Source: Bacteroidota bacterium
GTDB lineage: Bacteria > Bacteroidota > Ignavibacteria > UBA10030 > BY39
Direction of reading: 5' to 3'
Length of the DNA stretch: 32,375 bases
Assembly (NCBI GenBank): GCA_030682385.1
Contig: JAUXOG010000131.1
Coordinates: 1-32,375 of the forward strand
Made by a program: the position numbers and the translations under genes. The notes beneath the pieces are model-generated. The model was given only the letters and a program-made list of their open reading frames with translations. It searched no databases and had not been told where the DNA came from. Below, piece by piece: positions 28,654 to 32,375 of the stretch (position 1 is its first letter; every line of letters starts with the position of its first letter).

Positions 28654-30140
28654 TCATCTCAACAAAATCAATTTCTTGGTTTCTACAAATTTTCCTGTTC
28701 CCATTTGATAAAAGTAAACGCCACTTGGATAATTTCCAGAATTCCACACTACTTTATATGATCCGGCTTCTCTGTGTTCTTCTATTAATGTTTCAACCTC
28801 TTCTCCAAGAATGTTCATAATTTTAAGTGTAATGAATTCCGACGTCAGAAGGTTAAATGAAATCGTTGTTGTCGGATTAAATGGATTAGGATAGTTTTGA
28901 TAAAGGTGAAAATTTTTAGGTAGAGTAATAGTATTTTCATCAACATTTAATAATTCATCTCTAATTGCAGTCATCGCCTGTTTATAGGTTGAATCGTTAT
29001 GAAATAATCCATACGAACCCAATACTTCGCTTATTGAATGTTGAGCAATCTGATAATCTGGATAGAAATAAAAGATGCCGTAAATGTTCGTATCGGGTTT
29101 ACATATTCGAATAAAATCTCTTACATATAAAGCCTGTCCCTGTTCTGTAAAAGGATAACCGGGATAGATTGGTCCCATATCCGATACAAATGAGCTTGGA
29201 TATGAGAACTCTGAAATGATAATTTTTTTGCCGGTCTGGCTTGTTAATAATGAACATAATTGAAAAAAATTTCCAAAAGTTACTTGTGCTGGCGGAGGCG
29301 AACCCGGGGGAAAACATGTTGTATAATAACTTAATCCAATAAAATCGAATGGAACACCGTTGTCGATCATATATTGGTAGAATGCTTGATGAATACCATC
29401 GAACCAGCCAACCGAACTAATATGAAGTTTAATCTGTGCAGTTGAGTCGGCTCTTTTTGTTCCTCTAATTGCTGCTTTTAATAAAACTACTTCTTTACTC
29501 CAAACACTGTCTCTTAAATAATCCAAATATGTTCCCTGACCATTCCATTGAGTTATTTTACCTCCGGGATAGTAACTGCACATTCCATACTCTATCTCAT
29601 TACCCATTTCATAAATTTTTACATTCAGCCCCTTCGTTTTAAAATAGGACGCAGTTTCATAACAATGATTTTCTATTGCGGAAGCTGTTTGTTCAAGATT
29701 AAAGGGTAACCATTCAGCCGGACCGTCTTGTTGACCGGCATGCGTAGCCCTGTCGCTGAAGTAAAAGAAAACACTTTGGTTTAAATTGTTTTGCGCTGCT
29801 TCGTGTAAAACTCGCTCGGCAAATTCACGACTGCACCAAAATTCGTTGTTCCAGCCAAGTGAGGGCCAGTTCTGGTATGGAGTTGTGGCAAGTAATTGGC
29901 TCGATGGTGTTAGAACTCCAACGCGGACCCAACTAAAACCGTTGTTTTTCATCACTTGTAATGGATTTTGATATTTCCAATAAGTACTCCATTCTCGATA
30001 TGCCATATAATCGTATGCAGTTCCACCGAATTGAAGCGTTGTATTATTTTTTTTTTATCGATGTTACCCTGAGCTGATACGGGAGTATTGATGATAAATA
30101 ATATAATAAAGGCACTTAAAAAATAAAATAAAAATCTCAT
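28654..30140 (-). CDS. Secreted GH53-like glycoside hydrolase with T9SS domain, split by a frameshift at A10
   Basis: The main frame (28654-30006) gives 450 residues. It has the GH clan A features of endo-beta-1,4-galactanase-like enzymes: YEMGNEIEYG with acid/base E137, DFIGLSYY, and IIISEFSYP with nucleophile E266. It ends in a T9SS sorting domain (YQNYPNPFNPTTTISFN, LKIMNILGEEV, SGVYFYQM). The signal peptide is in another frame: ATG at 30140, MRFLFYFLSA... to VSAQGNIDKKK, with AAGGA 7 bases upstream. The two frames meet at ten A (30047-30056). One more A would join them as KKKNNTTLQFGGTAYDYMAYREW, giving a 495-residue protein. Sequence error, true mutation, phase variation or transcriptional slippage are all possible. 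It follows the ABC-F gene by 11 bases. Coordinates cover both parts. Confidence 0.8.
30047..30056. repeat. Homopolymer A10/T10 at the frame break
   Basis: Ten consecutive T on the plus strand, read as A10 in the glycosidase gene, sit exactly where the signal-peptide frame must change to the catalytic frame. Eleven A would restore one frame; nine A would give an immediate TAA. Confidence 0.9.
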
Positions 30141-30151
30141 ACTAATTTCCT

Positions 30152-32134
30152 TCATTTATTTGCACTGTTTGAATTAATAATATGCTCAAGTTTTTCGCTG
30201 TATTCAGTCCACTTCTTATATAGCTCGTCCAACTCGCCCGTTATCTTTTTATACTCGCTGTTGGTTGATTTCACTTTATGAGTGTCGGAATAAAAATCGG
30301 GTTCAGCCATTGCAGCTTGGTATTCGATTTTTAGTTTTTCCTTTTTCTTAATTTCTTTTTCAACCGCAGCCAATTTTTCTTTTAATGGCTTTGTAATTTT
30401 GTAAAGCCGCTGCCGCTCTTCGGCTTCAAGTCGTTTGCGTTCCTTTTCTGATATTTCTGTATTATTAGTTTTTGCACTAAGCTCTACGTTCTGTTTGAAT
30501 GACTGTGTTTCCTTTTCTTTTGCAGCAATATAATCGGAGATGTTTCCAAGATAAATTTTAATCGACTTGTTTCGAACTTCGATGACTTTATTCACAACGG
30601 GGTCGAGAAAATGTCTGTCGTGCGAAACAATTAAATATGTTCCCTCAAAATTAATTAATGCTTCCTGCAAAACTTTTTTCGATCGCATATCGAGATGGTT
30701 TGTCGGCTCGTCCATTACTAAAAAGTTTGCCGGCTGAAGTAACATCTTTGCTAACGCTAACCTGCTTTTCTCGCCTCCCGAAAGAACACGAACTTTTTTA
30801 AACACATCATCGCCTTCAAACAGAAAACAGCCGAGAAGTGTTCTGATTTGAGTGCGTGTTTCACCTTCTGCAACCGATTCTACAACTTGCAGTACTTCCA
30901 TATCGCTCTCAAGCTCGTCCACTTGTGTTTGGGCAAAATAGGCAGTCGTTACGTTGTAACCGAATTTCACTTCTCCCGATGTCGGCAACTCGCTGTTGCT
31001 GATTATTCTGCTTAACGTCGATTTTCCGGCGCCGTTCACACCAACAAGCGCAAATTTATCGCCTCGTTCGATAGTTAAGTTAAGGTGATCTAATACCGTC
31101 AGATTACCGTGTTGTGTACGATACTGTTTTGTCAAATCTTTGATTTCCAACACGACTGCCCCTGACTGCTTTGGCTGGGGAAAGCTAAAACTAATTTCCT
31201 TCCCTACTCCCTCGACTTCAATCAAATCGACCTTCTCTAAAAGCTTTATCCGGCTCTGAACCTGTCGTGCCTTTGTAGCTTTATATCTAAAGCGGTCAAT
31301 AAATTGTTGAGTTTGTTTTAACTGCTGCTTCTGATTTTTTGCTGCGTTTACCAAAAGCTCGCGACGGTTTTCACTTTCGGTTTCATAAAATGTATAGTTA
31401 CCCGAATATATTGCTAACTTGCTGTTTGCCAAAGCAAGAGTTTTGTTAGTCATATTATCAAGAAAAGCTCTGTCGTGTGAGACGATAACGATTGAGCCGT
31501 TGTACGATTTTAAATAAGCTTCTAACCAGCGAAGCGAATCAAGATCGAGATGATTCGTTGGTTCGTCGAGCAGCAACAGCGAAGGATTGCTTAACAATAA
31601 CTTTGCAAGAGCAATACGCATTTGCCATCCGCCGCTGAACTCGTCAGTTTGCCTGTTGAAATCTTCTTCCGAGAAACCAAGTCCCATCAACACTTTTTCG
31701 ACTTGCGATTGCATTCGGTAAGCGTCTAAGCTTTCGAGTTTAAGCTGAAGTTCACCTTGAAGCTCTATCAATTCACTGTAGTCCTGATTGGAATTTGTTG
31801 AGCTTACGAAATTCTGGATTTGCGAGTTGATTTCGTCTAACTGCCGATCGATAGTGTTGATATCCTCGAATGCCGTTTTAGTTTCCTCGTAAAGTGTTTT
31901 ATTCGAGGATGTTACAGCTTCCTGAGGCAAATAACCGACTGAAACATAATTAGCTTTTTGAACAGAGCCGGAATCGGTTTGAGTTAAACCGACTAAAATT
32001 TTGAGCAGCGTTGTTTTGCCGGTGCCGTTAGCACCAACAAGACCGATGCGGTCGTGAGCTCCGATTTGCAGAGTAACATTTTTGAAAAGATACTCGCCGC
32101 CGAATTGGATTGATATGTTTTGTAGTAGTAGCAT
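30152..32134 (-). CDS. ABC-F family ATPase (ribosome-associated, Uup/YheS-like)
   Basis: A 660-residue soluble protein with two ABC domains and no membrane segment, the ABC-F layout of translation factors that act at the ribosomal E site. Domain 1 has Walker A GANGTGKT at 34-41, signature FSGGWQ at 166-171 and LLLLDEPTNHLD near 186-197. A linker of about 60 charged residues (250-305) follows, the tRNA-contacting arm. Domain 2 has GVNGAGKST at 365-373, LSGGEKSRLA at 451-460 and DEPTNHLD at 475-482. A lysine/glutamate-rich coiled coil (about 555-655) closes the protein. The catalytic EQ2 glutamates are intact. Its stop overlaps an ATG (ATGA) before the glycosidase gene. The CRISPR array begins 44 bases upstream of its start. 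Confidence 0.95.
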   Translation of the reverse strand: MLLLQNISIQFGGEYLFKNVTLQIGAHDRIGLVGANGTGKTTLLKILVGLTQTDSGSVQKANYVSVGYLPQEAVTSSNKTLYEETKTAFEDINTIDRQLDEINSQIQNFVSSTNSNQDYSELIELQGELQLKLESLDAYRMQSQVEKVLMGLGFSEEDFNRQTDEFSGGWQMRIALAKLLLSNPSLLLLDEPTNHLDLDSLRWLEAYLKSYNGSIVIVSHDRAFLDNMTNKTLALANSKLAIYSGNYTFYETESENRRELLVNAAKNQKQQLKQTQQFIDRFRYKATKARQVQSRIKLLEKVDLIEVEGVGKEISFSFPQPKQSGAVVLEIKDLTKQYRTQHGNLTVLDHLNLTIERGDKFALVGVNGAGKSTLSRIISNSELPTSGEVKFGYNVTTAYFAQTQVDELESDMEVLQVVESVAEGETRTQIRTLLGCFLFEGDDVFKKVRVLSGGEKSRLALAKMLLQPANFLVMDEPTNHLDMRSKKVLQEALINFEGTYLIVSHDRHFLDPVVNKVIEVRNKSIKIYLGNISDYIAAKEKETQSFKQNVELSAKTNNTEISEKERKRLEAEERQRLYKITKPLKEKLAAVEKEIKKKEKLKIEYQAAMAEPDFYSDTHKVKSTNSEYKKITGELDELYKKWTEYSEKLEHIINSNSANK

Positions 32135-32177
32135 TTGGTTAAATATACGAAAATTGGAGTTGTGGGAGAAATAAGCC

Positions 32178-32375
32178 GTTGTAGTTTGCTTTCAAGGTTT
32201 TTATAATTACATTGTATTATGAAATGCTTCGACTTTGTTGGACGTTGTAGTTTGCTTTCAAGGTTTTTATAATTACATTTATAACTGTTGGTAACTGGTT
32301 AGCTGGTTAGTTGTAGTTTGCTTTCAAGGTTTTTATAATTACATTATTTCCGAAATTGGCTCGTTACGTTTGACA
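32178..32375 (+). CRISPR. CRISPR array, left end (3 repeats of 36, spacers of 30)
   Basis: Three identical 36-base repeats lie at 32178-32213, 32244-32279 and 32310-32345, beginning GTTGTAGTTTGC and ending TATAATTACATT. Two complete spacers of exactly 30 bases lie between them. The final 30 bases of the window fit a third spacer of the same length, so the array very probably continues past 32375. The 36/30 geometry, the GTTGTAG opening, ends that are partly complementary (TGTA-TT), and no strong internal stem all resemble type II-C repeats, which rely on a tracrRNA. No cas gene or tracrRNA is in the window, so the type is inference. By analogy with type II-C the crRNA direction would be plus. 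Only 43 bases separate the first repeat from the ABC-F start codon, too little for a normal leader. Confidence 0.96.

Follow-up and report, generated by a model that had tools for sequence, protein, structure and literature searches.

Host-spaced promoter matches within the repeats of a type II-C CRISPR system from Bacteroidota

The array, its cas genes and the tracrRNA

The window, that is, the whole stretch of DNA analysed here (32,375 bp), makes up the whole of contig C99 in a draft assembly of 3.38 Mb. Its last 198 bases are made up of three identical 36-nt repeats (GTTGTAGTTTGCTTTCAAGGTTTTTATAATTACATT) and three 30-nt spacers, with a gene outside the CRISPR system as their neighbour:

30152-32134, - strand: ABC-F ATPase gene, 660 aa
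32135-32177: 43-bp gap before the first repeat, holding a predicted divergent ABC-F promoter (- strand, start 32135, score 11.5)
32178-32213, + strand: CRISPR repeat 1, 36 nt, crRNA orientation
32214-32243, + strand: spacer 1, 30 nt
32244-32279, + strand: CRISPR repeat 2, 36 nt
32280-32309, + strand: spacer 2, 30 nt
32310-32345, + strand: CRISPR repeat 3, 36 nt
32346-32375, + strand: spacer 3, 30 nt, reaching the contig end

The predicted ABC-F start lies one base ahead of the ATG, so that the mRNA, transcribed away from the array, would be almost leaderless.

Six further identical repeats were found on the other strand of a second contig (C128), beside cas9-cas1-cas2, and a genome-wide search allowing up to three mismatches returned no copies beyond C99 and C128. 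The C128 array gives way to the opening bases of an IS3-like element, and the two contigs are separate in the assembly. The two pieces probably form one array, or two arrays of one system, with the window array probably being the cas-distal part of a type II-C array. Protein models identified Cas9 (TIGR01865, 608.7 bits), a type II Cas1 (TIGR03639, 287.3) and Cas2 (TIGR01573, 71.9) as adjacent on C128, the type II-C set without csn2 or cas4, and the stretch from cas9 to the array on this contig holds no additional gene.

The IS3-like element (L002 12474-12602, G000:C128 end) begins TGATCTTnCCCC, with a transposase MEATQVKRRRFDKQF; similar IS3-like elements split cas9 near residue 1009 in a relative, G407 (ends of L102 and L103). 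In G462, a second, different array occurs near the II-C array (L105 2174), with nine copies of a 33-nt repeat and spacers of about 36 nt.

An anti-repeat (GAAAGC..ACUACAAU) lies upstream of cas9 on the + strand of L002, the tracrRNA being on the opposite strand. The tracrRNA promoter scores 17.7 with the host matrix described below, and its predicted start (L002 7442, -) falls exactly at the anti-repeat. The RNA would begin 5'-GAAAGCUUACUACAAU... and end GCCCCUG-UUCUU-CAGGGGC-UUUUUU, with the terminator at 7399-7381, which provides the anti-repeat and terminator of a type II-C tracrRNA; its co-folding with the repeat as written gives -39.3 kcal/mol. Together, the tail and terminator fix the + strand of the window as the crRNA strand. 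Transcription of crRNA from the opposite strand, named by the sequence-only reading as evidence that would count against its proposal of a promoter in each repeat, is contradicted by the orientation of the tracrRNA; that orientation and the matrix scores, which do not exceed 1.9 on the opposite strand of the nine repeat copies, rule it out.

Transcription of the array would thus run toward cas2, a polarity that agrees with the one reported for the II-C system of F. columnare (PMC8092290). Hairpins followed by U runs were found on the crRNA strand between the array and cas2 in this genome, and strong hairpins occupy the same place in four relatives. At its cas2 end, the array is also bordered by a long palindrome (L002 12028-12067; directly after the last repeat in L103, L104 and L106); its sequence differs, and in several relatives a second terminator-like hairpin follows. 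R. anatipestifer leaders likewise contain a palindrome (PMC5006608). The palindrome may end repeat-driven transcripts.

Host promoters and the boxes in the repeat

The genome encodes a single sigma factor with region 1.2; at 285 aa it is too short for region 1.1, and from its residues we take it to resemble the Bacteroidota type. Scanning the locus with the sigma-70 consensus returned as many promoter matches as shuffles did (17 vs 16.6) and was therefore uninformative for this host. The host promoter rule was derived de novo from 631 kb with 222 upstream regions, CRISPR repeats being excluded from training; a smaller set of 111 such regions had given statistics of insufficient strength. In the 631 kb, TTG-n20-TAnnTTT was observed 36 times (3.7 expected), no other spacing being comparably enriched. 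TTG-n20-TATATT occurred 26 times in the host (0.55 expected), TTG-n20-TATAAT seven times (0.4-0.8 expected) and TTG-n19-TAnATT 12 times (3.0 expected), the enrichment of TAnATT being 4-fold at n19 versus 18-fold at n20. Counting from the first T of the TA box, host upstream regions favour a purine 12 bases on, which marks the likely transcription start. The same n20 peak, with TAnnTTTG, appeared in the relative G255 and in pooled Bacteroidales; in G331, where the repeat spacing is n21, the spacing peak of the host promoters is not sharp.

The host consensus, TTG-n20-TATATT/TAnnTTT, differs from that of the E. coli-type sigma-70 class (TTGACA/TATAAT). Of the "sigma70-like" promoter first read into each repeat, the match on the crRNA strand and the -35/-10 spacing of the host held up. 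The E. coli-type assignment did not, and has to be replaced by a Bacteroidota-type sigma that favours TTG-n20-TATATT and also uses TATAAT at n20.

Two overlapping sets of boxes, referred to as registers A and B, were located in the window repeats:

32179-32181, 32245-32247 and 32311-32313, + strand: register A -35 TTG (repeat positions 2-4), host-matrix match
32202-32207, 32268-32273 and 32334-32339, + strand: register A -10 TATAAT (repeat 25-30), host-matrix match
32214, 32280 and 32346, + strand: predicted register A starts
32186-32188, 32252-32254 and 32318-32320, + strand: register B -35 TTG (repeat 9-11), from comparison of repeats
32208-32213, 32274-32279 and 32340-32345, + strand: register B -10 TACATT (repeat 31-36), n19 from TTG 9-11
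32220, 32286 and 32352, + strand: predicted register B starts

Register A is the one originally described: all three window repeats carry TTGTAG (2-7), exactly 17 bases and then TATAAT (25-30), and a start 7 bases past TATAAT falls, by repeat positions, on spacer base 1. Counted from TTG 2-4, the distance to TATAAT is n20, equal to the host spacing, on the crRNA strand only. Host-matrix scores range from 6.4 to 11.3 over the nine repeat copies, placing them among the best 0.01-0.06% of positions in the genome, so that a promoter sequence is predicted on the crRNA strand of every repeat. The -35 hexamer alone proves nothing, because the GTTGTAG start of the repeat is fixed by tracrRNA pairing and TTGTAG matches TTGACA poorly, at three positions only. 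When the 3' half of the repeat was shuffled, TATAAT at exactly n20 from TTG gave P = 0.003, a post hoc figure; with the class widened to any host-type box at n20 (TAnnTT or TATAAT) it was P = 0.05; the best matrix score of this single repeat was equalled in 8% of shuffles (P 0.08) and is not exceptional. The repeat is AT-rich, a caveat on any box match, and the preference of the host for TATATT over TATAAT counts against register A. What places register A above chance is its match to an independently derived host spacing rule and the pattern across relatives.

In register B, TACATT occupies the last six bases of the repeat, the classic II-C position of the -10 box, and the predicted start is spacer base 7. 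Its matrix scores (3.6-8.5) were read through TTT 8-10 at n20, because the matrix permits n20 only. The repeat would therefore offer two overlapping registers: initiation at spacer base 1 would leave a 30-nt guide and initiation at base 7 one of 24 nt, and both starts may be in use.

An alternative is that the array is transcribed from a promoter outside it, in a leader or by read-through, with processed 5' ends. On this view the boxes are accidents of AT-rich sequence, in a repeat with a 5' end held constant by pairing to the tracrRNA. The weakness of the single-repeat shuffle test speaks for it, as does the R. anatipestifer study, in which the repeats yielded no promoter and one in the leader was put forward (PMC5006608). 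Against this, no other host-type + strand promoter scoring above 6.5 reads into the array from window positions 29500-32178, the 43-bp gap included, and none above 6.5 does so from the cas2 side on C128, so a leader promoter of that strength was rejected for either flank. A leader on the cas2 side would in addition drive the strand opposite to the one that the tracrRNA calls for. The same matrix detects the tracrRNA promoter and a cas9 promoter; ordinary upstream regions reach a median best score of only 6.0, however, and a weak leader promoter could escape the matrix. Box enrichment across repeats, described below, is strand-specific and tracks the box of the host lineage. We consider transcription from outside the array unlikely.

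Repeats of relatives and of II-C arrays at large

Relatives of the same order, whose Cas9 is 64-85% identical, have 46-47-nt repeats with the first 17 bases identical to the window repeat (in G407 one repeat is left, and its length was estimated by alignment). In G255, G401 and G407, TAGATTT(G/T) begins at position 32, exactly n20 from TTG 9-11, and this TTG-n20-TAGATTT forms a conserved island amid diverged stretches; G462 has TATTTTG at the same position. The bases of the window repeat aligned to this box are TACATT, one base nearer to TTG 9-11 (n19), and the T, A, T and T of TACATT are invariant in the four nearest relatives. Conservation of TATAAT was rejected, as it is absent from the related repeats. 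Thus, the -35/-10 spacing that had been suggested for checking in relatives is kept at n20 in G255, G401 and G407, but with other boxes and not as the TATAAT pair. Since the relatives are without the TATAAT pair, comparison supports register B no less than register A. The window repeat holds a shortened version of the shared register, plus an extra TATAAT at exactly n20 from the first TTG.

We surveyed 44 distinct Bacteroidota II-C repeats and 20 from other phyla, oriented by their conserved 5' block. TTG-n19-21-TAnnTT was present on the crRNA strand of 22 of the 44 Bacteroidota repeats and on the opposite strand of one, with 4.1 expected. The Bacteroidota -7 box TAnnTTTG was present in 14 of the 44 (1.0 expected) and in none on the opposite strand; it occurred in 0 of the 20 other-phyla repeats, all of which end TAnAnT at 31-36. 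The Bacteroidota excess survives thinning of similar repeats (e.g. 7/17 vs 1.6), which corrects for descent only partly, and the other-phyla repeats are shorter, with a higher G+C content.

Several Bacteroidales repeats of 46-47 nt (L225, L227, L245, L257, L260) carry TATCTTTG or TACCTTTG at about positions 23-31; unlike in 36-nt repeats, this inner box predicts a start within the repeat, about 11 bases before the spacer. Outside Bacteroidota, the repeat of a Deltaproteobacteria MAG (L207, GTTGTGGTTTGCAGACAGGCATTTGTTTGGTATAAT) also contains a complete -35/-10 pair, with TTG 9-11 lying n19 from a perfect extended -10 (TGGTATAAT) that closes the repeat.

The TAnnnT box at the repeat end could instead be kept for Cas1-Cas2, as one of two partly inverted ends (GTTGTA...TACAAt), and not for transcription; TACA does mirror the GTTGTA of the opposite end in many repeats. 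An exact inverted end would finish in C, whereas the last base is T in 20 of 20 other-phyla repeats. In the 46-nt relatives the box is internal, 8 bases from the end, and still n20 from TTG, and in Bacteroidota repeats with the inner TATCTTTG it is far from both ends. A role confined to Cas1-Cas2 appears decidedly improbable.

It is a real possibility, somewhat short of an even chance in our estimation, that the working promoter is register B only (TTG 9-11, n19, TACATT 31-36), with TATAAT as a by-product of the AT-rich stretch. This is a Neisseria/Campylobacter-like sub-case of a promoter in the repeat and does not exclude the latter. It is favoured by the invariance of TA..TT, not shared by TATAAT, in the four nearest relatives, by TTG(9)-n19-TAnATT being common to six Bacteroidota 36-nt repeats, by the TAnAnT ends of all 20 other-phyla repeats and by the start at spacer base 5 in C. 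jejuni (below). A start at base 7 would also give a 24-nt guide, a usual length in II-C systems. Conversely, the host uses n19 less than n20 (TAnATT 4-fold vs 18-fold), and the matrix scores of register B are lower (3.6-8.5 vs 6.4-11.3).

Known systems and a proposed route to crRNAs

The N. meningitidis repeat begins GTTGTAG and ends TACAAT at 31-36, where TACATT sits here. Its -10 box lacks a suitably spaced TTG, and the repeat scores low with the matrix of this host. A promoter within each repeat is described for N. meningitidis (Zhang et al. 2013, as cited in PMC7038990 and PMC5006608). In C. jejuni, the repeat ahead of each spacer supplies a separate promoter for that crRNA, with initiation at spacer base 5 (Dugar et al. 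2013, PMC3656092); the -10 box lies in the last six repeat bases, and only an extended -10 (GGTAAAAT) was described (PMC3656092). That system shares cas9-cas1-cas2, a tracrRNA and a -10 box at the repeat end with the present one, which differs in its TTG/-10 pair in host spacing and in the extra inner TATAAT with a predicted start at spacer base 1.

F. columnare and F. psychrophilum are also Bacteroidota hosts, in which transcription runs toward the leader and a TTG near the repeat start was proposed as the upstream promoter box (PMC8092290, PMC10309648), in F. columnare as a -33 box (PMC8092290), but in which the -7 box was left unidentified in the repeats (PMC8092290, PMC10309648). Here and in the relatives of the order, both boxes are present and host-spaced. 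The II-C array of Clostridium cellulolyticum is transcribed opposite to the cas genes and its repeat has an extended -10-like end; it differs from this system in that a -35 was not reported and the sigma class is another (PMC7038990). In a limited search of literature naming CRISPR and TAnnTTTG together, the motif was not found assigned to repeats. Self-promoting repeats were thus already known; the full host-spaced -35/-10 pair, and a box matching the lineage and sigma factor of the host, appear to be new within the literature covered.

We regard it as likely that each repeat carries a promoter for the Bacteroidota-type primary sigma factor of the host. From the promoter match, the strand, the tracrRNA, the terminator-like hairpins and the lack of other promoter matches, all read from the sequence, we infer the course of initiation and cleavage in the array. 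RNA polymerase would bind each repeat at TTG, about 20 bases and a TA box, and initiate where the repeat meets the spacer, or slightly inside the latter, producing short spacer-repeat transcripts that would run toward cas2 and end at the hairpins with U runs. The tracrRNA, made from its own promoter next to cas9 on the opposite strand, would base-pair with the repeat-derived half of each transcript, and cutting at this duplex would create the crRNA 3' end. It is plausible that the spacers are expressed singly, with 5' ends set by initiation. The original suggestion of initiation in place of processing would hold for the 5' end only; by analogy with other type II systems, 3' ends would still need tracrRNA-dependent cutting.

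We lean towards the broader view that II-C repeats have a variable 3' half adapted to the primary sigma factor of the host. The fixed GTTGTrrTTTGC would offer two TTG -35/-33 boxes, and the remainder would evolve a host-spaced -10/-7 box, TAnnTTTG or TATATT-like in Bacteroidota and TAnAnT elsewhere. Start and guide length would slide with the register, and transfer of arrays across phyla may be limited by promoter fit.

Repeat-borne crRNA promoters are known from experiment in a few Proteobacteria and Campylobacter; our data suggest that they extend, in sigma-adapted form, through Bacteroidota. E. coli-type consensus searches can miss such promoters, and one Riemerella study reported none. The rule of TTG, about 20 bases and the -10 box of the host would predict, for many II-C arrays, which strand yields the crRNA and where its 5' end lies, and offers a testable reason for the differences in 3' half and length (36 vs 46-47 nt) among their repeats.
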